From: a virus
Length of the DNA stretch: 48,154 nucleotides
IMG/VR virus record: IMGVR_UViG_3300027852_000052
Span: 1-48,154 of that record
Reading direction: 5' to 3' (one strand)
Part shown: piece by piece, positions 18,760 through 48,154 of the stretch
How the letters are laid out: every line of letters begins with the position of its first letter
How positions within the stretch are numbered: position 1 is the stretch's first letter
Made by a program: the position numbers and the translations under genes
Notes under the pieces: generated by a model
Databases searched by the model: none
Told to the model about the DNA's origin: nothing
Seen by the model: the letters and a program-made list of their open reading frames with translations, nothing else

Positions 18760-18927
18760 TTAGGATTTAGCATGTAAAACCTTTTCCTTTGGTTTACGCA
18801 ACCACTTGTTAACTGACGGCTGTGCAATGTCAAGATAGTCAGCAATCTCTCGTTGCGTAAGCCCTTGGTCATCTAAGTCATTTATTCTTTTCTTCTGATA
18901 GTCTGTAATGGGTTTTCCTTGTGCCAT
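18760..18927 (-). CDS. Small helix-turn-helix DNA-binding protein (55 aa)
   Basis: 55 residues with GGAGGG before ATG at 18927. Residues ~17-43 read DLDDQGLTQREIADYLDIAQ followed by PSVNKWLRK: a classic helix-turn-helix (GLTQREIADYL as first helix, a turn, then SVNKWLRK as recognition helix) of homeodomain-like or transposase/sigma-like type. There is little else in the protein, so it is a minimal DNA-binding regulator. It is the only obvious stand-alone HTH protein in the window and hence a candidate ligand for the dyad boxes or iterons; that link is inference only. Confidence 0.75.
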   Translation of the reverse strand: MAQGKPITDYQKKRINDLDDQGLTQREIADYLDIAQPSVNKWLRKPKEKVLHAKS

Positions 18928-20635: not shown

Positions 20636-21859
20636 TTATTCTGGTTCTTCTACAGACTGATGTTTATACCATATCCCCCCTTTCTGCCCTTTTGGGCCTA
20701 TAAAACTACGTTTTACTGTACCCTTCTTTTTTAACGTATTAATAACATTATCTAACTTGTTTGAATCAACATCTCTCCATGTTAATGACATAAGCGCTTC
20801 CTCTGTTATCCAACCTCTCGATTCCACGATTGTCTCAACAAGATCTACATCTGCAGCTACCATACTACGTCCTACAGCTTTAAATACATTACCCATCTCC
20901 TTTTCAATTTCCTCTATGTCTGCAAATGCTCTTTCTGCGTGTCTCCACTCCAACGTCAGTTCAGATGTTTCAGCGGCAGCATGTATCATTGTTAATTTCT
21001 GCAGATACAGAGGCTTTCTTTCATACCACCCACTGAATGATGGATCAAGGCATAGCCTATCAGGACTTTGCTCTTCGTAATTTTGATACCAATGATCCCA
21101 TTTTTTGAATGCCTCATCTGAGTATCTATATGTTCCAGCAATACGACTAATCTTATATAGATCATTCACTAAACTGGCTTTTAGCTTAGCCTCTGCTGGT
21201 GTTTCAACAGGTGCAGTAACCTTCTTCTCTTTGTTTGTTGCCCATACAAATATAATTCTTGTTGTAAGACCACCCCCTATTGCTGTTGATGGAAGTGAAC
21301 TGGCGATGCTTTCAGGTGTTGTTGCTGCTTGAAGATTAAGAAACACTGAAGGAACAACATTGTTTCCTGAGTGCTTTGTTCTGTATTTCCAAGGAAGCTC
21401 TTCCGCATCAAATAAGTCAGTAAGACATACAATCATCTTAGTATTTTCACCTTTTTGTCCTAAAAAACTCTCAAACTCTCTGCTGACAACAGTTATAGAA
21501 CTATGCTCTAATGTGCTACCGTCTGGAAGTGGCTCCTCAGTAGCAGCTTTTTCAATGTCCTCAACAAGAGCTTGGTATGTTGTAACATCAGCAGCCATCA
21601 CTATGTCTGGTATCTCTGATAGAAAACGTCTCCCCCAGGATATAGCCTGAGACTTTCTTGGCCCTCCTGGTGGACCGACAAATACTACATACATATTTGC
21701 ATATATACGTAACCTACCAAGACTTAAGTGAACCTTCTTTCTGAGACACGATGCTATAAGAGATAAACACACCCATTTATGTAATATCTTGGCTGATTCT
21801 GTGTTTTCTTGGTACTTTAGATATCCGTCAATCCAGTTTTCTATCTCTCTGTCTCCCAT
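20636..21859 (-). CDS. Replicative ATPase/helicase-like protein (DUF3987-like)
   Basis: 407 residues. A Walker A variant GPPGGPRKS spans residues 62-70; STLEHSSITVVSREFESFLGQ (~115-135) and the LNLQAATTPESI stretch (~175-186) follow the DUF3987-type ATPase found with phage primases. Residues ~340-400 look like a winged helix (ITEEALMSL... LDNVINTLKKKGTVKR). It probably loads or acts at forks with the polymerase encoded 1.3 kb downstream in sequence. The Pro before RKS is unusual for a P-loop. The start ATG overlaps the preceding stop (TAATG). Confidence 0.6.
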   Translation of the reverse strand: MGDREIENWIDGYLKYQENTESAKILHKWVCLSLIASCLRKKVHLSLGRLRIYANMYVVFVGPPGGPRKSQAISWGRRFLSEIPDIVMAADVTTYQALVEDIEKAATEEPLPDGSTLEHSSITVVSREFESFLGQKGENTKMIVCLTDLFDAEELPWKYRTKHSGNNVVPSVFLNLQAATTPESIASSLPSTAIGGGLTTRIIFVWATNKEKKVTAPVETPAEAKLKASLVNDLYKISRIAGTYRYSDEAFKKWDHWYQNYEEQSPDRLCLDPSFSGWYERKPLYLQKLTMIHAAAETSELTLEWRHAERAFADIEEIEKEMGNVFKAVGRSMVAADVDLVETIVESRGWITEEALMSLTWRDVDSNKLDNVINTLKKKGTVKRSFIGPKGQKGGIWYKHQSVEEPE

Positions 21860-23134: not shown

Positions 23135-25480
23135 TTATGTCTTTATTGGTAAACCATCTTTCCATGCCCAATCAACAGTTTTCATTTCTAACCAGTTCTT
23201 GCCCACTTTAAAGTCCACATCAACACAAAACTCTTCTCTGTTAATAGTCAAAGGTTGTATCATTGATTTTCTAATCTTAATAATACAATCCTCAACCTTG
23301 TCATCATCTGCGTAGACATACATTGCATCATGTAACTGCAACGCTACTGTATAGTCACTTCCATACCGCTCATAAAATCTCACAATAGAACTATTTAAGA
23401 GATCTCCAATGGTACTCTGTGGTTTATATGCATATGCCGATCTAAACAGAGCATCTCCCCATGCATCATTAAATCTACGCTTTCTTCCTAAACATGTTGT
23501 AAGAACCTTTGATCTTCTCAACTCCTCTTGTATCTTAGTTTGATAGAGGACTATTGCTAGATTTCTGTTTCTATATAAAAGACGAAGTTTCTTAGCCTCT
23601 GGAAGAGAGCACCCCACCTCGTTTGCAATTACACCTGGGCCAGCATCATAATTACACGCATGCCTAAGAGTCTTTCCTATACGACGCTGTTCAGATGTAA
23701 CTTGTTCATATGGAATTTGAAACAGTATGGAAGCAGTTATCCTATGAAGATCGTATTTTTTCTTTCTTTCTGTAGGTGACAACCCAAAGGATTTCTTATA
23801 CATCTCTATTAAACGCTTGTCTAATGATTCATAGGCAACAATTACGGCCTCTGCTTGGACATAATCTGCACCAACAAGAGTCTTACCTGGTAACGGTTCA
23901 AATAATATTCTTAGATCCTCTGGGATTGTCTGAAAGTTTTTTGGTCCAAATGGATCTATTATGCTTTTTGATGAACTCCATCGACCAGTATCAGTCCCAG
24001 TAATATTATATGATGTGAATACCTTTCCCTCTGGTGAAACTTCATAGTCTAAGAAGGAAGATTTCTTCTTGCTATACTTTCTGTGTTCTAACATTAGTTC
24101 AGGAACGATTGAATTCGGATGATCACAATTAGCTAGCTTCTTTAATGCTATCTTATCTGTAGTTAATTTTCTTTCCTCCTTTACTGACTTTCTACGTTTA
24201 AACTGTGGAGGTAATTCCATCTGAATGTACAATAAATCTTTCACCTGTTTTGGACTATTATAATTTATCTCCTTTCCTGACAATAGTTTTAGACTCTTAC
24301 TAGCTTCAGCAATCTTTTCGTTGCACATAGTCAGAATCTCTTTTTGCTTGTCAGTATTAAATATTACCCCATTCAAATTCAGCATTATAACAGGCTCTAA
24401 TTGAGACATTTCTAGTTCATATGTATCCCTAACACCGAATTCTGTAATAATTCTTTCTAAAACTGGTACAAGTGCTCTAGTATTTGCAGCATCAGCAGCA
24501 TTATAAATGCCCATATCATCCTTTGCTGTATGCTTCCAAGATGGTACATCTAAACATATAGATGAGACAAAACCCAGACTCTTCGGAAGCTCTGTCCAAC
24601 AACAATGTGCCGCAAGCATAGTATCCATGTAAATATGTCTTGTTGGAATAGAATACCTTTTCCACATTACAGCTACATCATAAGCTGCATTATGATACAC
24701 CATTGGACAGTATCTGAGCACCTTAGCAAGACCTTGTAATATTTTGACCTCATCGCTTTCAGTGTATCTTGGATAACTGCCCCGTAGTATTTCGATAGAC
24801 ATGGCAAAATTGGCATCATTAGATAGACCAAACCATGTTGGATATGCCTGAATTGTCTCTAAATCAAGTGCACATATTTCTCTTCTTAAAGAGACCTCAT
24901 CACAAAAATTTACCCATTCATCTACTGTTGGATTTGTTATTAATGTTCTGTTGTCTTCTGGTATTTCAGGAAATGCTGAGTGTCTCAGCGCTTTTCTGAG
25001 GTCTAACACTGTAACATAAAACAGATTTCTTGTGTAATTCACAGCTTGTGGGTGATATGTAGATAAAACCTTTTGTCCTGAGACAAGAGTACTCTCTGTT
25101 ATAGCACCTCTGTAAGCCTTAATACCAGAATTTTCAGTCAAGGCCCAGTTTGCTATTGCACCTAAGGCTACCACAATGTTAGGTTCATGCAGTATTATCT
25201 CGGTCTGTAGCAAGTCTATCCACTCTTGCATTTCAGGTGTTGGAATCGTATGTTTCTTGTCTACGAAATACAAGTCTATATTATTATCTTTGGGCTGTAG
25301 TCTAGCTACATTAGCTATAAGACATTTACCTCTTGCGATGCCAGCCTGTGAAAGTAATCTATCTAGAGTTCTTCCAGCCTTGCCCACAAAGGGTTCTCCA
25401 CGAGCACTTTCCTCCTCTCCAGGAGCTTCGCCTACCAGCATTATCTTGGCATTTGCTGGCCCTATTGTTTTAACAAACAT
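23135..25480 (-). CDS. DNA polymerase A with N-terminal UDG-like and exonuclease domains
   Basis: 781 residues. Residues 1-165 are a family-4-like uracil-DNA glycosylase fold: GEAPG at 17-21, ARGEPFVGKAG (26-36), HP at 143-144; the usual iron-sulphur cysteine pair is absent. Residues ~200-345 are a 3'-5' exonuclease with DLE (206-208), HNAAYD (263-268) and YNAAD (326-330). Residues ~360-781 are a family A polymerase: TGRWSS (498-503), motif A ADYVQAE (538-544), motif B RRIGKTLRHACNY (599-611), motif C LHDAMYV (716-722). Motif C has HDA where HDE is usual. It is the phage replicase. The glycosylase part could act on uracil-containing DNA or be structural, as in phage SPO1. Confidence 0.9.
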   Translation of the reverse strand: MFVKTIGPANAKIMLVGEAPGEEESARGEPFVGKAGRTLDRLLSQAGIARGKCLIANVARLQPKDNNIDLYFVDKKHTIPTPEMQEWIDLLQTEIILHEPNIVVALGAIANWALTENSGIKAYRGAITESTLVSGQKVLSTYHPQAVNYTRNLFYVTVLDLRKALRHSAFPEIPEDNRTLITNPTVDEWVNFCDEVSLRREICALDLETIQAYPTWFGLSNDANFAMSIEILRGSYPRYTESDEVKILQGLAKVLRYCPMVYHNAAYDVAVMWKRYSIPTRHIYMDTMLAAHCCWTELPKSLGFVSSICLDVPSWKHTAKDDMGIYNAADAANTRALVPVLERIITEFGVRDTYELEMSQLEPVIMLNLNGVIFNTDKQKEILTMCNEKIAEASKSLKLLSGKEINYNSPKQVKDLLYIQMELPPQFKRRKSVKEERKLTTDKIALKKLANCDHPNSIVPELMLEHRKYSKKKSSFLDYEVSPEGKVFTSYNITGTDTGRWSSSKSIIDPFGPKNFQTIPEDLRILFEPLPGKTLVGADYVQAEAVIVAYESLDKRLIEMYKKSFGLSPTERKKKYDLHRITASILFQIPYEQVTSEQRRIGKTLRHACNYDAGPGVIANEVGCSLPEAKKLRLLYRNRNLAIVLYQTKIQEELRRSKVLTTCLGRKRRFNDAWGDALFRSAYAYKPQSTIGDLLNSSIVRFYERYGSDYTVALQLHDAMYVYADDDKVEDCIIKIRKSMIQPLTINREEFCVDVDFKVGKNWLEMKTVDWAWKDGLPIKT

Positions 25481-25637
25481 TGTTATCCTTCTCTTTCTTT
25501 GTCCGTGTTAAGAGTATTGATATGTCTGTTGCTTCTACAGAGAACCCGAGTATTGTCAGATCATATATGTGCCTCCATTGGTTAAGAACTGTTTGTACTT
25601 GAGTATCTGTCCCATGTAGTATCTTATATTCTATCAT
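25470..25637 (-). CDS. Small conserved-looking phage protein (55 aa)
   Basis: 55 residues from ATG 25637 with AGGAGAAA upstream. The pattern EYKILHGTDTQVQTVLNQWR followed by a strand and ISILLTR resembles short alpha/beta phage proteins often beside replication genes. It overlaps the end of the methyltransferase gene by 4 bases and the start of the polymerase gene by 11 bases, so coupled translation is likely. Function unknown. Confidence 0.6.
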   Translation of the reverse strand: MIEYKILHGTDTQVQTVLNQWRHIYDLTILGFSVEATDISILLTRTKKEKDNNVC

Positions 25638-26941
25638 TGTAATTTCTCCTTTCTCTTATGTCTTGCCACTCTCTGAACTGCTGCAGAATAGGCATCTTCG
25701 TCTATATCACATCCAGTAAAGAACATTTTCAGTTCTAGTGCCGCAACAGCTGTTGGTGCAGAACCCATGAATGGGTCGAAGATTTTTGCTCCTGGCAAGC
25801 ATGTTCTCATAATAAGTTCACGCATTAATAGAACAGGTTTTTCATATTCGTGTATTCTTGCACTACCTGTTACAGGAGGAAAATTCTCTATCACATCTGG
25901 TCTGCCCTCTAACACAAGACGAGAATCAGGTTTTCTTGCAAACATGATCATGTCAAAACAGCTTGCTGGCCACATAGTTGGCTGGTTTGTTTGTCCTGAT
26001 GCACGTTTATACCATATAATAGGTTTAACATGAACCTTCCATCCAGCGTCTTCAAATGCTAGTGTCAGGAGATGGAAAAACCGTGGCGCCACAAATACGT
26101 AAACATGCCCATTGTCTTTTGTAAATCTGTAGGACTCTCCAGCTAACCTAGCTGACTGAAGAGCAAGTGTTGGTAGGTCTATATCCTTTGACTTGAACCC
26201 GGCAGATGTGAATTTTCCTGTTACACCATTAAGACTTCTACGTATCTCGTCTGCATCAATGCCATACAGAGGATCTGTTACAACAAGATCGAACTCTTTG
26301 TCTGGAATAGACTGCATATACTCCATTGAATCCTGTAAAAGCAGAGTTGGAATATTATCCTGTCTTTTTAATTCTTGTTGGTATTCTTCAAGCCTTTCTG
26401 TTCTTGTCTGAACCTTTGTGATTCCCTTTAAGGCTTTTACAATCTCAGACTTTGTCTTGCAGTCTTTAAGCTCTGGGTGATCTTTCACACCCTCTGCAAT
26501 AGCCAGGTTTTCTACAACATATGTATGACTTTTGTTCAGTTCGCCTGCTGTGTCCTGAATCTTCCAGCCACCCTCACGACCAGATGTGGATTTACCTATC
26601 TTATCTTGCTTCATTTGATGGAGTTCACCTACAGCAAGAGCCTCCTCAGCTGCAGTTAGTGCTTTTCTCTTAAGGTTGACCTCTAGTTCTAGCTCTCGCA
26701 TAGTCATATTATCGACTACATCCTTATATATTGCCATAACCTTCAGTCCACCTAGAGCACAGGCAGCTAAACGTCTTCCTCCATCTATAAGTTCTCCCTC
26801 CCTATTTAATACGATAGGCTGTAGTTGACCATACTCTTTTATAGAATCTAACAAACCCTTTACGTCGCCCATATCTGTACGGAATCTCGGAAGCTCTTCT
26901 TTCACTATAATCTCTGTTGGCTCAATCTCAAAAAGGTTCAT
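25634..26941 (-). CDS. ParB-like domain fused to amino-DNA methyltransferase
   Basis: 435 residues. Residues ~5-100 are a ParB N-terminal (sulfiredoxin-like) domain with LDSIKEYGQLQPIVL and DGGRRLAA (53-60; GERR in most family members). Residues ~125-150 look like a helix-turn-helix. Residues ~198-430 are an N6-adenine or N4-cytosine methyltransferase of permuted order: TDPLYG at 222-227 (DPPY family, Leu in place of the second Pro) and IFDPFMGSAPTAVAA at 387-401 for AdoMet binding; HEYEKPVLLMRELI (364-377) is typical. No cognate nuclease is seen, so it is an orphan, probably protecting phage DNA or marking it. Confidence 0.85.
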   Translation of the reverse strand: MNLFEIEPTEIIVKEELPRFRTDMGDVKGLLDSIKEYGQLQPIVLNREGELIDGGRRLAACALGGLKVMAIYKDVVDNMTMRELELEVNLKRKALTAAEEALAVGELHQMKQDKIGKSTSGREGGWKIQDTAGELNKSHTYVVENLAIAEGVKDHPELKDCKTKSEIVKALKGITKVQTRTERLEEYQQELKRQDNIPTLLLQDSMEYMQSIPDKEFDLVVTDPLYGIDADEIRRSLNGVTGKFTSAGFKSKDIDLPTLALQSARLAGESYRFTKDNGHVYVFVAPRFFHLLTLAFEDAGWKVHVKPIIWYKRASGQTNQPTMWPASCFDMIMFARKPDSRLVLEGRPDVIENFPPVTGSARIHEYEKPVLLMRELIMRTCLPGAKIFDPFMGSAPTAVAALELKMFFTGCDIDEDAYSAAVQRVARHKRKEKLQ

Positions 26942-27168: not shown

Positions 27169-27408
27169 CTACTCCTTCTTCATTGCCATTAATTGTTTAT
27201 GGGTTATTCCAAGGGATTTTAGCAGTGCTTTTTCTTCAGGTGTGAGTTTTGGTAGGGAAGGGGACTTTCGTCCCCCACTCTTCTTTGGTTTGGATATACG
27301 AACAGATCTAAGCTCTTCGATACAAAAAGCTCTTGTTGACCTTATAAAGCATTCTGCTTCATCTTGGCTGAAGTCCAGAAAGTCTTTTTTCTGTTCGTAC
27401 AGTTTCAT
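27169..27408 (-). CDS. Unknown early protein (79 aa)
   Basis: 79 residues with helical ends and a basic, Pro/Gly/Lys-rich middle (RISKPKKSGGRKSPSLPKLT). The C-terminus has a short helix pair (TPEEKALLKSLGITHKQLMA) reminiscent of a small HTH, but this is weak. It overlaps the next upstream gene by 4 bases. Function unknown. Confidence 0.55.
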   Translation of the reverse strand: MKLYEQKKDFLDFSQDEAECFIRSTRAFCIEELRSVRISKPKKSGGRKSPSLPKLTPEEKALLKSLGITHKQLMAMKKE

Positions 27409-27932
27409 AGGGCCAACTCCTCTACCTTGTTATAGACCCGACCTTTGTATTTGTCGATCGTCAAGACAACCTTGACATCCATGCCGAGCCATTCCTGGTT
27501 CTCCAGAGCCTCCATAATAGCGTCCATGCTGTTCATGTCAATGCTCAAGCCCTTTGAAAACTCTTTCATTGCGTTGATCTTGTACTGACGTTTTGTCTGT
27601 TTCCCAGACTTTGTCATGATGACATCATCACCAGGCCGTGGAAGCCATACTTTGTAAATGTGAGTTGAGCCATCCAACGGGGTCTCTCCATCCGACATGA
27701 CGCCACCGTTATCATTCAATGTCACAGAAAAATCTATGGAGGCGCTCTTTCCGTTGTACTTTATCTCTGTAAGCGCTCCGGCATAGCCACCATTCGGAAC
27801 CAGCGGAGTAGGTTTATACTCATCCTCTACGTCGAATGATATATCAGTTGCATTTGTTTCTTCCTCTTCTGAGAAACCATCTTCTACGTCAAAACTTTCT
27901 TCTGTCGTTTCTTTGTCTTTTTTTCTGGTCAT
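27405..27932 (-). CDS. Probable single-stranded DNA-binding protein (DUF669-like)
   Basis: 175 residues. The acidic N-terminal tail (EESFDVEDGFSEEEETNATD) precedes a beta-rich body: GYAGALTEIKYNGKSASIDF, HIYKVWLPRPGDDV, GMDVKVVLTIDKYKGRVYN. The order of strands and the linked ATPase gene resemble DUF669-type proteins found beside Sak4 recombinases, which are proposed ssDNA-binding proteins. An acidic tail is also typical of phage SSBs, although there it is at the C-terminus. Inferred role: coating ssDNA for replication or annealing. Confidence 0.55.
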   Translation of the reverse strand: MTRKKDKETTEESFDVEDGFSEEEETNATDISFDVEDEYKPTPLVPNGGYAGALTEIKYNGKSASIDFSVTLNDNGGVMSDGETPLDGSTHIYKVWLPRPGDDVIMTKSGKQTKRQYKINAMKEFSKGLSIDMNSMDAIMEALENQEWLGMDVKVVLTIDKYKGRVYNKVEELAL

Positions 27933-28666
27933 TTTGTTTTTGTCTCCTTTGTTATTGCTTTGTTTAGTGTTTCCATCAGTGTGTTGTAATCGTTAGGAAT
28001 GTAATCTTTGAGTCTCTTTGTTTTGCCACTCCAACGACTTCTTGCCTTGGTTAATCCCACAGGCACTGTCTGTAGCCAATAAGTAGTTTTTCCCTCCTTT
28101 CTCTTCGTTGTTGAGTAGTATACTTCTGTAAACGCTCCAGGAAGAGTTTCTGGAAGGTTTCCAGTTAAAAGTGGGCGAATATCTATAACTGCGCCCTCCT
28201 TATCCATTAAGACATCCTTGTGACAGATGACTATCTTTAATCCTGGTAGGTTTGATATCTGCCTAAGCCTTCCAGCAATAAGGTTTTTTACAAGTCCGTA
28301 ATGCACATTCCATATCGGCCCATCTACCTCACTGCGTTGTGCGTTCAACTGTAATGCACGTTCCATAGCAAGATCTGTCATTAGTGTTGTTGAATCTATG
28401 ATAGTGGTTTTGTACTTTCCCTCCTTCATGTCCTTTTTGTGCTTGGTTAAGTCCTTCTCAAACTTCATCCAACCTGTAAAAGAGGTTTCATACTGTTCGT
28501 AGTCGAAATCCTTTCCATGATATGTCTCTATTCCTCTATCAAAGTCAAACACAAAACCGGGTGTTGGACAACTTGCTGCGAAGATGGATTTTCCTGTTCC
28601 ATATGGCCCAACAATCATGATGGAGTTGCTCTTTCCAACTGGTGATATATCCATTGCTGATGGCAT
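27929..28666 (-). CDS. Sak4-like RecA-fold recombination ATPase (AAA_24)
   Basis: 245 residues. Walker A GPYGTGKS at 20-27; Walker B region TTIIDSTT at ~85-92; sensor-type ICHKDV at ~150-155 and a basic C-terminal segment. The pattern and length fit the AAA_24/Sak4 group of phage single-strand annealing or RecA-like proteins. Neighbours (ssDNA-binding candidate downstream, Cas4-like nuclease upstream) form a standard phage recombination set. It overlaps the downstream gene by 4 bases. Confidence 0.8.
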   Translation of the reverse strand: MPSAMDISPVGKSNSIMIVGPYGTGKSIFAASCPTPGFVFDFDRGIETYHGKDFDYEQYETSFTGWMKFEKDLTKHKKDMKEGKYKTTIIDSTTLMTDLAMERALQLNAQRSEVDGPIWNVHYGLVKNLIAGRLRQISNLPGLKIVICHKDVLMDKEGAVIDIRPLLTGNLPETLPGAFTEVYYSTTKRKEGKTTYWLQTVPVGLTKARSRWSGKTKRLKDYIPNDYNTLMETLNKAITKETKTK

Positions 28667-29565: not shown

Positions 29566-30510
29566 TCATTCCTCTCCATACATAATATCTCTATCTGGGT
29601 GCTTTTTCAAGACATCCCAGGGTTCTAGTATAAACTCACCAAAACTTTCATAGTCGATATCAGGAAGCTCTTCAACTCTTACAGAGTCACAGATCGGGAG
29701 ATATGCACACTGACCATAGTTCGTGCATGCGTTTGTATCCATTGGGTAAATACCTGTTTGCATGCAACGAACAATCTCTCCGGCAGTATGCAAGAACGAC
29801 TGCCTCCAATTGTAGATATCCGTATCAGAGTAGATAATTGGAGTACGCATAAAGTTGATTGTTAACTTCCCATATGTGCCGTCCTTCTTTTTCCTGGAGG
29901 CCAACTGATGTATGTTTATTATACAACCCTGGGCCTCAACTTCATTAAGACACTGCGTGGCAAATGTGTAACCTTTCATTTGTGGGGACTTTTCTTGCGT
30001 AAAAGCTATCTTCTTGCATGGATATCCGGTGCTTTTATGATCCCATATCCACGGAGTACCATAGTCTTCGACCTGTAAGTCGATCATGCCAGAAAAATAC
30101 AGATCAACACTGTGTAACCCATATTTATCGATCTCTTCTGAAGATGGGTTCATCTTTATCTTGAAAGCCTTCTCTACGTCTTTTATTATAAGACCCTCAT
30201 CCTGGAACTCAGCCATATATTCAATATAAGCTTTGCCACAGTTTATCTCTGTTCGGTAGTCGTCGAAATAGGTTTTTCCTTCTGTTTCCCTTTTCCAGAC
30301 TTTTGCGCCTTGTTCTGCTGCTGCGTCTATAAAATTATCTTTTCCTTGCATCTTTGCCTTGTAATGACCCTCCATGTATCCATGCCAGGTGCTTCCGTAA
30401 CGAAGGGCAGTGCTTTTTTGTTGCTTTTGCAACCCCTTTGATCTCAGGTAATACATTGCAAGACATGTGCGTGCATCTGTCCTTCGTGTATTGTCTAATG
30501 TTAGTTCCAT
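29566..30510 (-). CDS. Cas4/RecB-like PD-(D/E)XK exonuclease with Fe-S cysteines
   Basis: 314 residues. RYGSTWHGYMEGHY (~37-50), GMID (141-144), WIWDHKST with D157 and K159, and QMKGY (177-181) are the PD-(D/E)XK nuclease motifs. Cys16 plus CTNYGQCAYLPIC (C262, C268, C274) match the four-cysteine iron-sulphur arrangement of Cas4/AddB-type exonucleases. It probably makes ssDNA for the Sak4-like ATPase encoded nearby. AAGGAG precedes ATG 30510. A strong intrinsic terminator stands directly upstream. Confidence 0.85.
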   Translation of the reverse strand: MELTLDNTRRTDARTCLAMYYLRSKGLQKQQKSTALRYGSTWHGYMEGHYKAKMQGKDNFIDAAAEQGAKVWKRETEGKTYFDDYRTEINCGKAYIEYMAEFQDEGLIIKDVEKAFKIKMNPSSEEIDKYGLHSVDLYFSGMIDLQVEDYGTPWIWDHKSTGYPCKKIAFTQEKSPQMKGYTFATQCLNEVEAQGCIINIHQLASRKKKDGTYGKLTINFMRTPIIYSDTDIYNWRQSFLHTAGEIVRCMQTGIYPMDTNACTNYGQCAYLPICDSVRVEELPDIDYESFGEFILEPWDVLKKHPDRDIMYGEE

Positions 30511-30574: not shown

Positions 30575-30943
30575 CTACATAGTTACTCCTAAGGTTTCCA
30601 GGAGCTTCAGTGCCCTGGCCTTTTCCTTCTCGGGAAGGTCATCCAGCTTGCTCTTGATCTCATCTTTTGATACACCGATTCCGGCATGTCCTCGGTGCCA
30701 TTCACCCTTCATCATGGACTCGTGGGTCGCCTTTATTGCATTGACTGCATCTTGTCCGGACAGCCCACTGGCTGCGTTTCCGAGCTTGATATTAAGGCCA
30801 AAGGGACCGAGTTTTTCTTGGATGGTTGCCGGGTATTTTGTGAAATCGAAGTTCATCTCTGTGGAGGTCACAAGTTCCGTTATAATAAGTTTATTTCCGT
30901 TTTCCTTGTCAAACTCCTTTTTTAACTTTCTTTCTTTCGCCAT
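30575..30943 (-). CDS. Unknown early protein (122 aa), paralogue of the gene at 39937
   Basis: 122 residues. After a basic start, the LIITELVTSTEMNFDFTKYP part, GLNIKLGNAASGLSG and the ESMMKGEW motif align in order with the 144-residue gene at 39937-40371 (DFKLKLM, SLIAGEW). GVSKDEIKSKLDDLPEKEKA near the C-terminus corresponds to the acidic helical end there. AAGGAG precedes ATG 30943. It is followed by a strong terminator. Function unknown; this may be the best expressed gene of its section. Confidence 0.65.
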   Translation of the reverse strand: MAKERKLKKEFDKENGNKLIITELVTSTEMNFDFTKYPATIQEKLGPFGLNIKLGNAASGLSGQDAVNAIKATHESMMKGEWHRGHAGIGVSKDEIKSKLDDLPEKEKARALKLLETLGVTM

Positions 30944-33846: not shown

Positions 33847-35883
33847 TTAAAACATAACTTTAATTGTTCTGGCAATATGCCCTTTCACTCTTAATATCAG
33901 AGAGTTCCTCTTGGTCGAACTGAATCCCAGCCCGGAGAGTTGATTCTCTGATGGTTCTACCCTCATCTTGCTTCCTAGTGCTGCGAAAACACGTTTATGT
34001 TTCATGAAATCCTCTTTTAGAAACTCATTGAAGAATCCATTGGGCTGTTCGGGGTTCTTACAGCCATCAAGCATGAAGAAATAATGTTTATGGCCTATCC
34101 CCTTTTGTCCATCCCAATAGTTAGGAGAAAACATGCATAAGGAAACCTGATGAAATTGATTTGTCTTCAGACCCCATGCATCTTGGGACTGTGTGTCATA
34201 TGGCAATGCCTCTATAAAGGTAATACCAGTGTCCTTTTTAAAGGCAGCCCTTGCTACAAGAACAAACTCTTTGTGCCTAAGTGTATGGTTATACTCGTAA
34301 GAGAATATTTGTCCGTCATACTCAATCTCGGCACTAAAACCCGTCCTTCCTCCACAATGAGTGTAGTTGTGAACAAGGAACTGGTATACGCCCTCTTGCA
34401 TTTTGTTAATGTCTGTCCAGACAATGTTCTCAACAGCTACATTTGGTCCTGGCGTGATGATGTCTACATCTAACATTCCGGATGATGGTTGTACTATCTT
34501 TGCTAAGGGAAAGTGTATCCTGTTGCCATTTGGCTCAATACAGTGTGCGTCAAAATCATTTTGATTCTCCCCTTTCTTGTTCCACATTATGGAGTATCTT
34601 TTGACACCATTTATATTGCCACCAAAACTCTTGACGTGTTGTTTCATTGAATCTGTGAGGTTGCCCGGATAGGCCCAGGAGAAACCGTTATCCCATTTAA
34701 ATAAGGACTTACTCTGTGGATTCTGGGGGGCAATAAGGGACACAAAGTTAGACGTATGTTTATTCTCTACAAGCACTTCCATACTTGTTATTCTTGGAAG
34801 GATGTCTTTTAAGAACACACCTATGTGAACCTCTCCTACTCTATCGAACTTCTTTGTGTCTAGTGTAACTTCACTTTGTAATTCAGAAAAGACATCCTTT
34901 GTCATTCTACTCACTGCATCTCTGTTTGCAAACAGGATATTATTAATCGTTATGTCGTCAATAGTTGCAAAACGTCTGCCAAGTGATTCTGTCAAGCCTA
35001 AACTTATGAAAGTTTCCTGGGCTTGTTCAACCATTTTCTTTGTGAATATGTCTTTGGGCCGTTTATAGTTTGGCGGGGCAACGATATGCTCATATCGCTT
35101 GACTGCATCATTGATATCCGTCCCTTGCGAAAGATCTGTTAATAAGACACCTATGGAATGGTTTCTTATTCTTCCTATCGCTCCTCCAACACTGGTTGAT
35201 TTGTCCCAGCAAAACAGGTGTTTCTCCTGTCTTCTCAGCTTGTAGTAATTTGTATATAATACGAGAAACTTACTGAGCACACTCTTCCATTCGTCACCCT
35301 TATAGAGCGATCCTTGCGTGATCAGATCAAGGACTGTTTCAATAGAGTCCTTTGTTATTTCCTGTAAACTTCTCTTGAAGACATCATGTGTCGCACGGAA
35401 CTGAGAAACTGTAGTTCCAATGGTTTCAGACGACTTGCAGACGAGTCTTGGGGGTAATTCCAGAGATAGATGGTTCCAAGTCTGGATCATACCGTTGTCA
35501 AGTAATTCCCTGTTGTGTGCGGTGCCGAGCTTACTCTCTTTCGTGATAAATACATCATGAATGGGGAAACCCTTGACATACTCTGCAAGAGCGGAGACGA
35601 CAGGCTGATATGTTGTGTCGTCAACTGTGAAGTCCCATAGACTTATAGTCTTGTTGTCCTTAATCACGACAATGTGCCCATAGTGACGTATAAAATTTCT
35701 ACAACAACTACAGTCAAACTCCCGCCTCTCTCGGAACACTTCGTTTGTTCCTGGTGGAAAGCTATCTAGGTATAGCTCCCAAAGCAGATCTGGGTTAAGG
35801 TTTGTTGTGAATAGAGTGTTTTGACCGCCCATCATATCATAGGCATGTTCAAGGAACACCTCTTTAAACTCTCTAAACTCCAT
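33847..35883 (-). CDS. Large early protein with YfaP/DUF2135-like domain
   Basis: 678 residues. Near the N-terminus CSCC (~58-61) could bind metal. Residues ~420-550 show a beta-sandwich pattern (NDFDAHCIEPNGNRIHFPLA, SGMLDVDIITPG, GVYQFLVHNYTH, FSAEIEYDGQ) close to YfaP/DUF2135 domains. The remainder has no motif I recognise. It is the largest gene in the accessory part of the early unit and has AGGAGG 8 bases before ATG 35883. YfaP-like domains often bind sugars or calcium in exported proteins, but no signal peptide is present, so a cytoplasmic role, perhaps against host defence, is possible. Confidence 0.6.
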   Translation of the reverse strand: MEFREFKEVFLEHAYDMMGGQNTLFTTNLNPDLLWELYLDSFPPGTNEVFRERREFDCSCCRNFIRHYGHIVVIKDNKTISLWDFTVDDTTYQPVVSALAEYVKGFPIHDVFITKESKLGTAHNRELLDNGMIQTWNHLSLELPPRLVCKSSETIGTTVSQFRATHDVFKRSLQEITKDSIETVLDLITQGSLYKGDEWKSVLSKFLVLYTNYYKLRRQEKHLFCWDKSTSVGGAIGRIRNHSIGVLLTDLSQGTDINDAVKRYEHIVAPPNYKRPKDIFTKKMVEQAQETFISLGLTESLGRRFATIDDITINNILFANRDAVSRMTKDVFSELQSEVTLDTKKFDRVGEVHIGVFLKDILPRITSMEVLVENKHTSNFVSLIAPQNPQSKSLFKWDNGFSWAYPGNLTDSMKQHVKSFGGNINGVKRYSIMWNKKGENQNDFDAHCIEPNGNRIHFPLAKIVQPSSGMLDVDIITPGPNVAVENIVWTDINKMQEGVYQFLVHNYTHCGGRTGFSAEIEYDGQIFSYEYNHTLRHKEFVLVARAAFKKDTGITFIEALPYDTQSQDAWGLKTNQFHQVSLCMFSPNYWDGQKGIGHKHYFFMLDGCKNPEQPNGFFNEFLKEDFMKHKRVFAALGSKMRVEPSENQLSGLGFSSTKRNSLILRVKGHIARTIKVMF

Positions 35884-38832: not shown

Positions 38833-38861
38833 ATTATACCCTAAAAAGATTCTTATGTCAA
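38833..38861 (-). promoter_or_regulatory. Consensus sigma70-type promoter
   Basis: On the - strand TTGACA (38856-38861), 17-base spacer, TATAAT (38833-38838): a perfect consensus in both hexamers and spacing. The -35 lies in a 23-base stretch repeated exactly at 39148-39170. Confidence 0.9.
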
Positions 38862-38884
38862 GTTATATCTTATCTTAGATAAAC

Positions 38885-39129: not shown

Positions 39130-39158
39130 ATTGTAGCATAAAATGTGTCTTATGTCAA
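39130..39158 (-). promoter_or_regulatory. Sigma70-type promoter
   Basis: On the - strand TTGACA (39153-39158), 17-base spacer, TACAAT (39130-39135). Shares its upstream and -35 sequence exactly with the promoter at 38833-38861, and drives the paralogous small gene. Confidence 0.85.
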
Positions 39159-39210
39159 GTTATATCTTATTCCAAACATGGTTACTCTATACTCCCGTAG
39201 GGGAGAAGGG

Positions 39211-39221
39211 TCGAATTTCGA
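39211..39221. promoter_or_regulatory. Dyad box 6 (TCG-W5-CGA), origin left flank
   Basis: Perfect core TCGAATTTCGA followed by TATTTT. It lies 9 bases from the first iteron cluster. Confidence 0.7.
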
Positions 39222-39229
39222 TATTTTGT

Positions 39230-39287
39230 TGTACGAATGTACAAATGTACACTTGTGTACTTGTACGATAGTACATGAATGTGTACG
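39230..39287. repeat. Iteron cluster A, 8-bp units TGTACNAA
   Basis: Consecutive 8-base units TGTACGAA, TGTACAAA, TGTACACT, TGTGTACT, TGTACGAT, AGTACATG, then a last GTAC. Seven GTAC tetramers occur in 56 bases, where about one per 256 is expected. Such phased short repeats are typical binding arrays for an initiator or partition protein. There is no open reading frame here with a ribosome site. Confidence 0.75.
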
Positions 39288-39329
39288 AAGTTCCAGCAGC
39301 CCCCCTTCCCATTTCTCCGATGTTTATCC

Positions 39330-39412
39330 CTTTTCTCTTGTCTCTTCTCTCTTGTCTCTTCTCTTATATTAATAATATATTATTATATATATAATAAAAA
39401 AATATATAAAAA
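39330..39412. other. Pyrimidine repeat and AT-rich tract (candidate unwinding element)
   Basis: A tandem 14-base repeat TCTCTTGTCTCTTC (twice) runs into a tract from about 39364 to 39412 consisting almost only of A and T (TATTAATAATATATTATTA and onwards). It lies between iteron clusters. This is the arrangement of a DNA-unwinding element at a replication origin; function is inferred. Confidence 0.55.
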
Positions 39413-39495
39413 AGAAAGGATAAAAGGAAAAGGATGGAAAAGGGGGGGATAAAGATCGAAAGGGAGAGGGTAAAAAAGGGGGGTCTCCAGGATGC

Positions 39496-39622
39496 GTTCA
39501 CGTTCACGTACAAACGTACAAATAAAAAATTTTTTTCAAGCCTGTTTTGGGTTTGCTGAAAGTGACGTTCAAACGTGCAAAATAAGGGCTTGTACAATCG
39601 AACAACCGTACAACCGCACAAA
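39496..39622. repeat. Iteron cluster B, 8-bp units YGTNCAAA
   Basis: Three subgroups: CGTTCA, CGTTCA, CGTACAAA, CGTACAAA (39496-39521); CGTTCAAA, CGTGCAAA (39566-39581); and TGTACAAT, CGAACAAC, CGTACAAC, CGCACAAA (39591-39622). The 8-base period matches cluster A. No gene is seen in the + or - strand here that has a start and ribosome site. Confidence 0.75.
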
Positions 39623-39626
39623 AATA

Positions 39627-39637
39627 TCGTTTTTCGA
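39627..39637. promoter_or_regulatory. Dyad box 7 (TCG-W5-CGA), origin right flank
   Basis: Perfect core TCGTTTTTCGA, followed by TCTTTATC. It touches the end of iteron cluster B, mirroring box 6 beside cluster A. Confidence 0.7.
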
Positions 39638-39655
39638 TCTTTATCTTTTAAGGGA

Positions 39656-39688
39656 TAAAAAAGGAGGGCACCTTGCAGGATACCCTCC
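39656..39688 (-). terminator. Intrinsic terminator
   Basis: On the - strand GGAGGG (39683-39688) pairs with CCCTCC (39663-39668), with partial extra pairing inside, then TTTTTTA. It follows the stop of the small gene at 39698-39874 by ten bases and shields the candidate origin from early transcription. Confidence 0.8.
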
Positions 39689-39697
39689 CTTCCTGTG

Positions 39698-39874
39698 TTA
39701 GCGTCTTTGCACACGCCTTCTTAATCTTCCGATGTTTAGTTGCACAAATTCAAACTTTTTCTCTTCTATGATTTGCTTAAGCAACTCCTGTCGTGTTTCT
39801 TTCTCCTCCCATTCAAGCTCATGTAGCTTTGCTTTAATGTCTTGGAGTGTAGTAAATCTCTCTTCTATAGTCAT
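39698..39874 (-). CDS. Small helical protein (58 aa)
   Basis: 58 residues with GAGGAGG 7 bases before ATG 39874. One long charged helix (TIEERFTTLQDIKAKLHELE through KQIIEEKKFE) and an Arg-rich end (GRLRRRVQRR). Probably a small nucleic-acid-binding or coiled-coil regulator. It is the second gene of the first early operon and is followed by a terminator. Confidence 0.7.
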   Translation of the reverse strand: MTIEERFTTLQDIKAKLHELEWEEKETRQELLKQIIEEKKFEFVQLNIGRLRRRVQRR

Positions 39875-39900
39875 ATTCCCACCTCCTCTCTTTTTTAGAT

Positions 39901-39926
39901 TTTATGGGCTTGTAGATGCCTGTCAT
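39901..39926. repeat. Inverted repeat arm, left
   Basis: 26 bases, TTTATGGGCTTG-TA-GATGCCTGTCAT, matching the reverse complement of 40389-40414 at 24 of 26 positions. The two arms enclose the single gene 39937-40371. Confidence 0.8.
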
Positions 39927-39936
39927 GCTTAATGGG

Positions 39937-40371
39937 TTATTCCTCGTTTTTCTTGTTTTCCTCATCCTGAAGGTTTTGTGCAGTCTTTAGCAACGCTTCC
40001 TGTTCCTCAGTCAAAGGGATGCTCAGTGTAACCAAGGTGCGTATGTCCTCCAGGGATGTAATCTTCCCCGCTGCCTCTTTGTTGTATCCAGAGGTCTTCT
40101 TAGACGACCATTCTCCGGCTATCAGGGAATTCCAAGTATCCACCATAAGTTTCAGCTTGAAGTCTTGTGACTTTCCCTTAGTGTCGGCCTTTTTGTTGCT
40201 CAACTTCTGCTTACAAACGAAATATAAGCATTGTATCTTGAATTTCCTATCCTTGTCCATTGCCTTCTCTAACAAGGTTAGGTCAAAGCCCTCATGTTTG
40301 ACGTCTCCAGAGGACAGTATGGCCAACTCGTTCTCCAGCTTCCATTTAAAACTTTTTTCGATTTCTGTCAT
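39937..40371 (-). CDS. First early gene, unknown (144 aa)
   Basis: 144 residues, helical and charged: SFKWKLENELAILSSGDVKH at the start, LKLMVDTWNSLIAGEW in the middle and an acidic helix (TEEQEALLKTAQNLQDEENK) at the end. It is similar in order of motifs to the 122-residue gene at 30575-30943. It is first behind two tandem promoters and a boxA-like element, so it should be the earliest protein made. It is enclosed by a 26-base inverted repeat. Function unknown; a host-takeover or regulatory role fits the position. Confidence 0.65.
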   Translation of the reverse strand: MTEIEKSFKWKLENELAILSSGDVKHEGFDLTLLEKAMDKDRKFKIQCLYFVCKQKLSNKKADTKGKSQDFKLKLMVDTWNSLIAGEWSSKKTSGYNKEAAGKITSLEDIRTLVTLSIPLTEEQEALLKTAQNLQDEENKKNEE

Positions 40372-40997: not shown

Positions 40998-41405
40998 ATG
41001 GGCGCATTGGAAGATCTTATAAATAGAGCAAGTTCAGAGGAGCTTGATCTTGTTGGTGTAAAAGAAAAGATAAGTGCTCTTTCTCTTTTAAAGGATGAAA
41101 TGCAGGAATATAGACTCCTGCAGAGCTTTGAGCTTACCTCTCTACAGAGTATCTTGCTGGATGCTGTTAAAAGTGCTGTTAATCCTGATGTTCCTCTACG
41201 TGATCTTGTGAATGCTTTTAAAATTCTGAAAGAGAAAGAGCACCTAATAGATGGAAAACCTACAGAGTTTAAAGGTCTTGTACACTATTTGACAGCTTTG
41301 GAAGAAGAGAAAAGAGAGGTCCCACTAGAGTTGGAGTCCGAAGTTTATGAGGGAGAGTTTGTAGAGAAACCAAAGGTTCAACCAGAGAGAATGCCAAGGC
41401 TTTAG
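40998..41405 (+). CDS. Putative terminase small subunit
   Basis: 135 residues, mainly helical: GALEDLINRASSEELDLVGV, then SLLKDEMQEYRLLQSFELTS and a central KILKEKEHLIDGKPTEF. The acidic C-terminus (LELESEVYEGEFVEKPKV) may contact the large subunit. No clear HTH. The position, first in the late unit and two genes before the large terminase, is the main basis for the call. AAGGAGG before ATG 40998. Confidence 0.5.
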   Translation: MGALEDLINRASSEELDLVGVKEKISALSLLKDEMQEYRLLQSFELTSLQSILLDAVKSAVNPDVPLRDLVNAFKILKEKEHLIDGKPTEFKGLVHYLTALEEEKREVPLELESEVYEGEFVEKPKVQPERMPRL

Positions 41406-45244: not shown

Positions 45245-47106
45245 ATATAGCAGAAGATAGAATAATGATTAAGCCAGATGGAACCCCGCTTCTTGCAGAC
45301 GGCAGGGATATTTTAGGGTCTTTGCAGGAGTGGTTAAGGGACGATGAGAATAGTATTCCTGAGACTAATTGGCGAACATATGCTACTGTAGACTACGATA
45401 TGTATGCAGGACAACAGGATACAGTAGAAGTTCTACGAGAACTTGAGAGACTGAAGAGACCTAGTACTGTCTTTAATGAGATTAAACCAAAGATTGATAG
45501 GGTTGTAGGTCTTGGGGATCAGGTTAGACGGGTTCCTGAGGCCATACCTGTTGGGTTTGAAGACGAACCCTTAGTAGAGCTTACTAATGGCGCATTAAAA
45601 CACTTTCGTAGGACACAAAGGTTGTCTGATAAGGAGATGGAGTGTTTTGAGCACACAATAAAGAGCGGACGTTCTTATATGTATTTTCATGTTAATAAAG
45701 AGAATCCGTTTAAACCTAAAATTATGGCAAAGAGGTATCATGGCAGGGACATAGTAATAGATCCAGATTCTGTTGAGTATGACCTAAGTGATGCTAGAAG
45801 AGTGCATTTGTTTAAATGGTTTCATGAAGATGATATAAAAGTATACTGGCCAAAGTTTAGTGAGACCTTTTCCTTGTTTAGTAGAGAGTCTGCTGGTCAG
45901 ATGCTGCCGAGCTATTTTGATCCGGCTACTAAAAAGTATAGAATTGTAGAGACGTGGTATAAAAGGTTAGAGCCGGCATTCTGGTTTATTAACCCTATTA
46001 CAGGAAATCAGGAATATCTTAAAAAGAGGATGTTTCAAAGGTTCGCTAAACAACTAAAAGCTGGCTTAAGGCTTCCTGATGGTAATGTAGCTCAGCAAGA
46101 TGAGTTAGAATACGCAGAAACTCGTATGCCCTTTTACTACGTTGCTTTGCATTCAGGTGGAATATTATTAGGACACTCACCTAGTCCGCATCGTTATAGA
46201 GGTTTTCCGCTTGTTCAGTATGGTGCGTATAAGAATGATGATGAAAATAGATGGTTTGGGTTAATCTATGTTATGAAAGACCCACAGGTATCTCTTAATA
46301 CGATGAGAAGACAACTAGCGCATTTGTTACAAACATCACCAAAGGGTCTTCTTGTTCACGAGCAGGGGGTCATTGTTAATGAAGAGGAGTATGCAACTAA
46401 TTCTTCTGAGCCTAACTTCAAGTTAGTTATTGCAAAAGGTAAGATGGACAAATGGAAGTTCTCTGACCAACCATCAATAAGTAATATTTATGGTGAGCTT
46501 GATGCAGTATTTCAGCAAAGTATGAAAGATACCTCTGGTGTTACTGATGGATTAATGGGAGTACAAACATTCTCCAGGGAGCCTGCTGAGGCTGCGCACA
46601 TGCGACAAATGGCAGGTCTGTCAGTCTTATACATACCATTAACAAACTTTAGAAAGAGTAGAATACAGGGGACTAGAATATTTCATTCATTAATGCAGCA
46701 GTATATGAGTTACGAACAAGTGATAAGAGTAGAAGGTCAGCATGGCCAACAACTTATGGAAATAAACTCTCAGATTAATCCTCAAGTAAGTGGGTTTAAT
46801 GATACGTCTGTTGGGGAATACGATATGACTATCGATGAGCAGGCTGAGAATGTAACTATGAGAAAAGGTATTGCAGAAATGCTGATGGAGTTTGGGCGAA
46901 ATAATCCTGGAAGTATTCCTCCTGAGCTTGTATTTGAGTATACCGATGCTCCATATTCCGTTAAACAGAAGATTAGGCAGTACAATGAGGCTAGGCTTGC
47001 GGAGGAGCGAGAGTTTAGAGAGATGGAGTTAAATATTGAGCTTTTAAAGGCACAGAAAGGGGGAGAGAAAAAAGAGACAAAAGTGGCGAAACCTAAAAAG
47101 GATTAA
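45241..47106 (+). CDS. Portal protein, P22-like
   Basis: 621 residues from GTG 45241, overlapping the upstream stop as GTGA. Near the N-terminus SLQEWLRDDENSIPETNWRT and YAGQQDTVE; then FNEIKPKIDRVVGLGDQVRR (~80-99), FEHTIKSGRSYMYFHV (~135-150) and PKIMAKRYHGRDIVIDPDSV (~160-180), all in the order of P22-type portals. The C-terminal ~60 residues are charged helix (REFREMELNIELLKAQKG). It forms the ring at the packaging vertex. The length is near that of P22 gp1 minus its barrel extension. Confidence 0.85.
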   Translation: MNIAEDRIMIKPDGTPLLADGRDILGSLQEWLRDDENSIPETNWRTYATVDYDMYAGQQDTVEVLRELERLKRPSTVFNEIKPKIDRVVGLGDQVRRVPEAIPVGFEDEPLVELTNGALKHFRRTQRLSDKEMECFEHTIKSGRSYMYFHVNKENPFKPKIMAKRYHGRDIVIDPDSVEYDLSDARRVHLFKWFHEDDIKVYWPKFSETFSLFSRESAGQMLPSYFDPATKKYRIVETWYKRLEPAFWFINPITGNQEYLKKRMFQRFAKQLKAGLRLPDGNVAQQDELEYAETRMPFYYVALHSGGILLGHSPSPHRYRGFPLVQYGAYKNDDENRWFGLIYVMKDPQVSLNTMRRQLAHLLQTSPKGLLVHEQGVIVNEEEYATNSSEPNFKLVIAKGKMDKWKFSDQPSISNIYGELDAVFQQSMKDTSGVTDGLMGVQTFSREPAEAAHMRQMAGLSVLYIPLTNFRKSRIQGTRIFHSLMQQYMSYEQVIRVEGQHGQQLMEINSQINPQVSGFNDTSVGEYDMTIDEQAENVTMRKGIAEMLMEFGRNNPGSIPPELVFEYTDAPYSVKQKIRQYNEARLAEEREFREMELNIELLKAQKGGEKKETKVAKPKKD

Positions 47107-47134
47107 CATTTTTATAAAGAAAGGATGAAATTTT

Positions 47135-47953
47135 ATGGTAGATGCATTAGTAAATTTAGATGACGACGGAAAGGTAATAGATATTGATCCTGACGTAAAG
47201 TTAGATGGTGATGATGCAGATAAGGGTGATCCTACTACCGGTGATCCTTCGACTGATGGTGATGGTGACGACAAGGATTTGGATGACGATAAAGGTGGAG
47301 ACAAGGATAAAGACGGTGATCCGTCTCTTGAGGATCTCTTAGAGGCTAAAGATGCTGAAATAAGAGAACTGCGTCAGATGTCTAGAGATAACAAAAGAAA
47401 GACAGATGCGTTAGAGGTGTCGCTGGAAGAGCAGGGCAAAGCCCTTCGGGATGCTAAGATTATTGAGGAAGACCCAGAGGAGGTTGAGAAGGCCAATGCT
47501 GCAAGAGATTCACGTAATGAGTATCTAGATAATGTACTTGAGTTAATGCGTGTGAATCCTAAGTATGCAGATGTTGATGATGTGGTGTCTCAAGATAATG
47601 TTGATGATATGGTCCAGGCCTGGGCACTGGCATATCAAGAAGACAATGGTGGTAAGTTGAGTGTAATCACACGTAACATCGAGGCTGAGATTTGGGGGCA
47701 TAAGAATCCATATCGTTATTTGTATGACCTCATAAAGAAAACACATCCAACATATAATAAAGAGAAAGGGCGAAAAGTGGATATTACAAAAGATAAGGAG
47801 AATGGCCAACCATCATTAGAGGATATTCCTGGAGGTGGTGGTAGTGATAATGTTGGATGGACTGCAGCCAGAATTGATGGACTCGACGAGGAAGAACTTA
47901 ACACGGTTCCTGCTGATGTGTATAATAGATATTTGCGGAATCAGTTAAAGTAG
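47135..47953 (+). CDS. Scaffold-like acidic capsid assembly protein (right copy)
   Basis: 272 residues. Same ends as the copy at 81-887, but the linker at residues ~20-60 carries four extra residues and many Asp substitutions, and K/D changes occur near the C-terminus. The start is preceded by AAAGGA as in the left copy. It sits directly after the complete portal gene and so is the copy in native context. Confidence 0.65.
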   Translation: MVDALVNLDDDGKVIDIDPDVKLDGDDADKGDPTTGDPSTDGDGDDKDLDDDKGGDKDKDGDPSLEDLLEAKDAEIRELRQMSRDNKRKTDALEVSLEEQGKALRDAKIIEEDPEEVEKANAARDSRNEYLDNVLELMRVNPKYADVDDVVSQDNVDDMVQAWALAYQEDNGGKLSVITRNIEAEIWGHKNPYRYLYDLIKKTHPTYNKEKGRKVDITKDKENGQPSLEDIPGGGGSDNVGWTAARIDGLDEEELNTVPADVYNRYLRNQLK

Positions 47954-47967
47954 GAGGTTAAGGGAAA

Positions 47968-48154
47968 ATGGCAGAAACAATATTTTTAACAAATGATGCT
48001 CTCACTCGAAAAAAGTGGGCTAGAGATCTGTTCAAGATTCTGCTTCCTGCGACAGAGATAAACAGTCTTGTAGGAAGATCGACTGAGGATATTATTCAGC
48101 TTAGAACAGAACTAGGGAAAGGAGAAGGTGATCAGATAAAATTTGGTATCAGGC
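47968..48154 (+). CDS. Major capsid protein, N-terminal part only (window edge)
   Basis: The first 62 codons of the capsid gene, cut by the window end. The protein is nearly identical to the start of 902-1960, apart from one residue near codon 38 (Ala to Thr) among several silent changes. Confidence 0.8.
   Translation, partial: MAETIFLTNDALTRKKWARDLFKILLPATEINSLVGRSTEDIIQLRTELGKGEGDQIKFGIR

Follow-up and report, generated by a model that had tools for sequence, protein, structure and literature searches.

A mirror-image block of short repeats around an AT core, kept at one genomic position in the lineage of an uncultivated phage, as a candidate origin of replication

Background

For most phages that encode a family-A DNA polymerase and no recognised initiator, the origins of replication are unknown. 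The genome of the uncultivated phage analysed here (hereafter the window, a whole virus record of 48154 bases) raises this question at one particular place, a non-coding mirror-image block of about 430 bp in which short repeats lead to an AT-only core and the same repeats then follow reversed. Well-studied origins, such as those of phage lambda, plasmids, SaPI, SCCmec and herpes simplex virus (OriS), combine repeated sites with an AT-rich spacer that is opened by a helicase-loading initiator. Could the block be such an origin, as a sequence-only reading of this genome had proposed, and if so, which protein would recognise it?

The ends of the record repeat each other imperfectly (1-1086 against 47055-48152, 92.8% identical over 1.1 kb), so that the unit is about 47.05 kb long. 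Similar imperfect end repeats, situated in the portal region, are found in the relative G012 (94.7% and 97.9%), and both records may join two strain variants. Late genes lie on the plus strand, starting at about 41 kb and continuing past the end of the record as far as 18.6 kb, and early genes lie on the minus strand from 40.4 to 18.8 kb. The early genes and signals that matter for what follows, all on the minus strand, are these:

20636..21859, minus strand: DUF3987 ATPase (PHROG 'DNA primase', predicted helicase family)
23135..25480, minus strand: family-A DNA polymerase
27929..28666, minus strand: Sak4-like recombinase (AAA_24)
29566..30510, minus strand: PD-(D/E)XK exonuclease
30575..30943, minus strand: second copy of the GLKQK family, part of the replication/recombination operon and neighbour of the PD-(D/E)XK nuclease gene
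38861-38833, minus strand: near-consensus leftward sigma-70 promoter, the second of two
39130..39158, minus strand: near-consensus sigma-70 promoter (TTGACA-17-TACAAT), directed to the left and away from the block
39656..39688, minus strand: intrinsic terminator for leftward transcripts coming from 39698-40371
39937..40371, minus strand: GLKQK-family protein, 144 aa, a candidate origin-binding protein whose gene adjoins the palindrome throughout the lineage

The polymerase and DUF3987 genes are present in all near-complete relatives, and DUF3987 ATPases are predicted helicases of mobile elements. Among the other genes, that at 25634-26941 encodes a fusion of a ParB N-terminal domain with an N6/N4 DNA methyltransferase, which is conserved throughout the lineage as well as in the Desulfofustis, Microcystis and Vibrio phages. 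For the 678-aa phrog_1735 protein of unknown function encoded at 33847-35883, relatives occur in 487 records of phages of Salmonella, Klebsiella, Caulobacter and others; tblastn finds none in G012, G013, G005 or G007, and the gene is possibly a recent acquisition.

Structure of the block

The block comprises the following elements:

39193..39655, no strand: whole imperfect inverted-repeat block, the candidate origin, centred at about 39390
39211..39221, no strand: left dyad TCGAATTTCGA, of a dispersed intergenic family
39230..39291, plus strand: left iteron zone, TGTACNNN octamers at an 8-bp period, plus TGTACGAA at 39282
39330..39364, plus strand: pyrimidine tandem repeat with a 14-bp unit, CTTCTCTCTTGTCT
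39365..39414, no strand: AT core, candidate unwinding element, 95% AT over its best 60 bp
39495..39522, plus strand: right inner iterons CGTTCA-CGTTCA-CGTACAAA-CGTACAAA, in inverted alignment with the left arm
39566..39622, plus strand: right outer degenerate iterons
39627..39637, no strand: right dyad TCGTTTTTCGA, of the same dispersed family

The symmetric order of these elements had been noticed from the sequence alone, and the symmetry turns out to be stronger than was claimed, since the block is a true inverted repeat and the strongest imperfect one of the genome, with a score of 83-87 (whole-genome scan: mean 21.3, sd 4.5; next unrelated site 36 against 83 at the block). Dinucleotide shuffles of the region score 26 (sd 3.9, maximum 40) against 87 observed, a shuffle z of 15.6, and the best palindromes of simulated genomes of the same composition reach 36-50; as a caution, the unrelated, repeat-rich contig G010, used as a control, scored 67, and one of that contig's tandem arrays lies close to the site. 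Compared with its own reverse complement, the region matches over 39258-39524 (67%, E=1.2e-12), and when the arms are aligned outward from 39387 they match through the AT core, the pyrimidine/purine tracts, GGGATAAA-ATCG, a G/C run and the iterons. This matching is imperfect (about 67-79%), and the block folds as a single DNA strand at z=-6.9. ORFs across the block have no credible family match, in agreement with the view that the region contains no convincing gene.

The iterons are where they had been described and exceed chance by far. The left repeats run TGTACGAA-TGTACAAA-TGTACACT-TGTGTACT-TGTACGAT at 39230-39269, the right repeats CGTTCACGTTCACGTACAAACGTACAAA occupy 39495-39522, and weaker copies lie at 39566-39581 and 39591-39622. 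The octamer [CT]GTACNAA occurs 5 times in 427 bp, whereas genomic frequencies predict 0.04 and shuffles give a mean of 0.09 and a maximum of 2; [CT]GTAC occurs 10 times against 0.42 expected. The pyrimidine tandem and the AT tract are equally real, and the right arm is correspondingly purine-rich (purine fraction 0.34 on the left, 0.67 on the right). The anatomy of the block is thereby established: it holds the two things looked for in an iteron origin, a cluster of replicon-specific short repeats and, beside them, an AT-rich candidate unwinding element.

Flanking signals and dispersed dyads

At the right edge, the hairpin at 39656-39688 (-23.2 kcal/mol, z -3.5) carries a T-tail and is a credible terminator for the leftward strand, as had been suggested, even though a simple consensus scan left it unlisted. 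To the left lies a duplicated 41-bp segment (38833-38873 and 39130-39170) whose copies hold near-identical strong leftward sigma-70 promoters, TTGACA-17-TATAAT and TTGACA-17-TACAAT, 297 bp apart. With leftward transcripts halted at its right edge and strong promoters firing away from it, the block is insulated from transcription.

The two boxes that were thought to frame the origin cannot be its defining feature, as the same dyad, GATAAAnnTCGAWWWTCGAnnTTTATC, occurs nine times in the window (at 2395, 8533, 13927, 19252, 29435, 39211, 39627, 40726 and 43164), mostly in intergenic DNA and often 19-25 bp upstream of start codons. The relatives have a different dyad, CAG..AGAAA-GTCAA-n-TTGAC-TTTCT..CTG, in 4-15 copies per genome and in similar placement; over all ten genomes, 67/87 copies are intergenic. 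Ten of these dyads lie beside palindromes where 0.98 would be expected, but we do not count this enrichment as support, since dyads and palindromes are both intergenic and the count is probably about what this alone would produce. In placement, the dyad resembles the stoperators or start-associated sequences of mycobacteriophages (PMC3203893).

Conservation in relatives

Colinear relatives were collected by protein-based searches. In nine of nine near-complete genomes (window included), the best palindrome lies in the syntenic gap, beside the same small gene and before terS; its positions are 40900 in G012, 46780 in G013, 15510 in G014, 25350 in G015, 31980 in G016, 12870 in G017 and 48720 in G018. 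G019 at first looked like an exception. Its contig, however, breaks inside the core, and the arms, which carry 8-bp ACAAATAA repeats and match perfectly over 23 bases in inverted orientation, were found at its two ends, which makes the count complete. The palindrome is also carried by the partial contigs L100, L114 and L118, and the shuffle z ranges from 8.9 to 22 in 11 lineage members (G019 being outside that test).

The 7-9-bp iterons that surround the AT core (AT fraction 0.62-0.95 in lineage members) differ from genome to genome, and in several genomes their orientation flips at the core: TGTATCGT in G014 is found 5 times forward and never reversed on the left, and 0/6 on the right; TAAGCGGT in G015 gives 4/0 and 0/3, TGTAGGT in L100 8/0 and 1/4, and TTACACGA in L118 3/0 and 0/4. 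This orientation statistic is clear-cut in some members only, because the top motifs returned by the automatic search for the window, G012, G013 and G017 differ from the iterons read by eye. At the level of DNA, a nucleotide search in phages with the region gave no match, and none of the nearest nine relatives matched it. A common iteron core, GTGTA/TACAC, was considered and rejected; it is 4.3-fold enriched over 13 regions, but significantly so in only 5 of them and in varying orientation. The layout is thus kept at one position while the letters of the iterons turn over fast, and conservation by position and design is established. The sequence-only reading had let its proposal depend on conservation of the iterons in relatives: their letters are not conserved, but their architecture is.

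Outside the lineage, in two named phages with a related DUF3987 protein, Desulfofustis phage LS06 (z 10.9) and Microcystis phage Mel-JY34 (z 8.2), the best palindrome lies near that end of the early genes which faces the terminase. Strong palindromes are also found in MW202489 and in the Methanomicrobiales-assigned virus vir526, the latter with TGCATTTT-type repeats on both sides. Those of a Vibrio phage and of Pseudomonas phage 119X are weak (z about 4), the match in MW202554 overlaps an annotated gene, and Polaromonas phage Tiera has no clear palindrome despite the same primase. A limited literature search found no paper describing the element.

The neighbouring gene and candidate initiators

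In nearly every member, the gene immediately to the right of the palindrome, before terS, belongs to one family, which we named GLKQK after its motif; in most near-complete genomes the replication/recombination operon holds another copy. We assessed the linkage of gene and palindrome in loci reaching well upstream of terL. All loci with the GLKQK gene in view (L043/L044, L047, L077, L100, L110/L111, L114 and L118) have the palindrome, and none of the ten without it in view (L050, L062, L067, L070, L087, L094, L098, L099, L102 and L109) does, which establishes the linkage. Of the contigs that carry the gene and end within 6 kb upstream, 13/15 end 47-846 bp past it, in the palindrome zone. These ends, together with that of G019, whose break falls in a poly-A/T tract, are best explained by an assembly that failed at the AT or hairpin-forming core.

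Neither Pfam nor the PDB gives an informative match for the GLKQK family, and its PHROG matches are at most marginal or unannotated. Scanned as a single query, the neighbour protein found no relatives, and conservation in the family alignment (A5) was too low for a pattern scan.

Pfam scans of the window recognised no known initiator (no O or P, no Rep_3-type protein), in line with the statement that no named initiator can be recognised. The small HTH protein at 18760-18927, previously put forward as a candidate binder, resembles instead the N-terminal HTH of the small terminase of the relatives G005 and G007. The window's own TerS (40998-41405) starts without an obvious HTH, and its DNA-binding domain has possibly been split or relocated. 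The protein encoded beside the palindrome is a likelier candidate binder than this HTH protein. A 175-aa protein (27405-27932) was also considered and set aside, having only a sub-threshold winged-helix match (E=0.063). The likeliest candidates for the initiator are the GLKQK neighbour protein and an unrecognised DNA-binding part of the DUF3987 protein.

An origin of replication and its alternatives

That one design has been retained at a single place in the genome throughout the lineage is best explained by an origin of replication, and the insulation of the block agrees with this reading; from the framing boxes and from GC skew, it receives no support. Against it stand some distant phages with the same primase, Tiera with no clear palindrome and 119X and the Vibrio phage with weak ones. 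Cumulative GC skew had been proposed as a check, and its sign does change near the region, with a minimum about 1.2 kb to the right, at the switch of gene strand. The skew follows the gene strand, however, and as an origin locator it is non-diagnostic: minus-strand genes to the right of the region have the same skew sign as those on the left, and the polarity is opposite in G014 and the Microcystis phage and absent in G013.

We consider it probable that the block is the main origin of the phage, symmetric and initiator-dependent, at which the DUF3987 helicase/PolA module starts two forks. We infer the binding, melting, loading and direction that this involves as follows. A phage initiator would bind the short iterons that form inverted arrays to either side, the AT core would melt, and each half would load one DUF3987 helicase, with family-A polymerase forks leaving both ways; that each half serves one fork is suggested by the mirror symmetry, with iterons on both sides. 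Judging from gene content, the Sak4/exonuclease pair may later support recombination-dependent replication.

Among known systems, the origin of phage lambda likewise has repeated initiator sites beside an AT-rich region, but these are four 19-bp iterons, bound by O, on one side of a 40-bp AT region and inside the O gene. The iterons of the block are of 7-9 bp, on both sides and in non-coding DNA, and Pfam scans showed no relative of O or P, so that a lambda-type origin was rejected. The origins of SaPI and SCCmec elements (Rep, Cch2/CCPol-MP) also have short iterons, in their case bound by a mobile-element helicase and situated just downstream of its gene, whereas those of the block are far from the DUF3987 gene. 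In SCCmec the helicase comes with a family-A polymerase and with MP, a small unnamed protein, but apart from the family-A polymerase on both sides no protein shared by these elements and the phage has been shown. In herpes simplex OriS, inverted binding boxes for OBP surround an AT spacer; this is an analogy of layout only, as OriS belongs to a eukaryotic virus and has single longer boxes and the UL9 helicase, of which the phage has no relative. Plasmid iteron origins of the RK2, R6K and P1 type share replicon-specific iterons and an AT-rich region with the block, but their repeats are mostly direct, usually phased to the turn of the DNA and accompanied by DnaA sites, and the window has no Rep_3-type initiator. 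The block is very probably an origin of the iteron type, in a new two-sided mirror form and with rapid iteron turnover.

The main rival to an origin is a packaging site, at which the terminase small subunit or a partner would bind the arrays and wrap the DNA, and the large subunit would cut nearby to start headful packaging. Some pac sites are indeed two repeat blocks flanking the cut, the block lies about 1-2.6 kb upstream of terS in mapped members, and many contigs end in the zone. Near-complete contigs nevertheless cross the block and circular closures lie elsewhere (G013, G018), so that there is no fixed end, and the only traceable case, G019, is an assembly problem. Iterons to either side of an AT core are, moreover, typical of origins, and these phages have no other comparable candidate for one; we regard packaging as unlikely. 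A cos site was rejected, as the contigs of the window, G012, G013, G014, G016 and G018 cross the block and circular closures lie elsewhere. Somewhat less likely again is a centre of transcription control, with the arrays as operators through which a repressor or activator would act on the early leftward genes. The strong leftward promoter about 70 bp to the left and the dispersed, possibly regulatory dyads at both edges would fit this, but arrays and strong promoters do not overlap, the genes on the right point at the block and are terminated before it, leaving no divergent pair to control, and such a centre would not need a mirror-image operator with an AT core.

It is quite improbable that the block is a segregation or nucleoid-organising (centromere-like) site, where a protein would coat the arrays to position the phage DNA. 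Arrays of short repeats do occur in centromeres and the ParB-domain/methyltransferase fusion is conserved in the lineage, but such fusions do not make up partition pairs, the proteins scanned included no recognisable ParA or TubZ partner, and the AT core would be left unexplained. We give least credence to telomere resolution or a recombination hot spot, with the palindrome processed as a hairpin: the palindrome is large, folds strongly as a single strand and coincides with contig breaks, but its arms are not matched as in the perfect targets of protelomerases, and no protelomerase was found (PF16684 absent), which led us to reject an N15-type telomere site.

Conclusion

An origin of replication is thus the reading we retain. 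More tentatively, and with the odds somewhat against so full a statement, the lineage may share a class of mirror-symmetric origins whose layout is fixed and whose iteron code is rewritten in each phage, read by an unrecognised DNA-binding family, GLKQK, of which a paralogue would serve the replication/recombination operon. The layout can be found by its symmetry rather than by its sequence, which offers a way to locate origins in uncultivated phages. It also points to a candidate initiator family and provides, as a natural series, initiator-iteron pairs whose specificity has changed.
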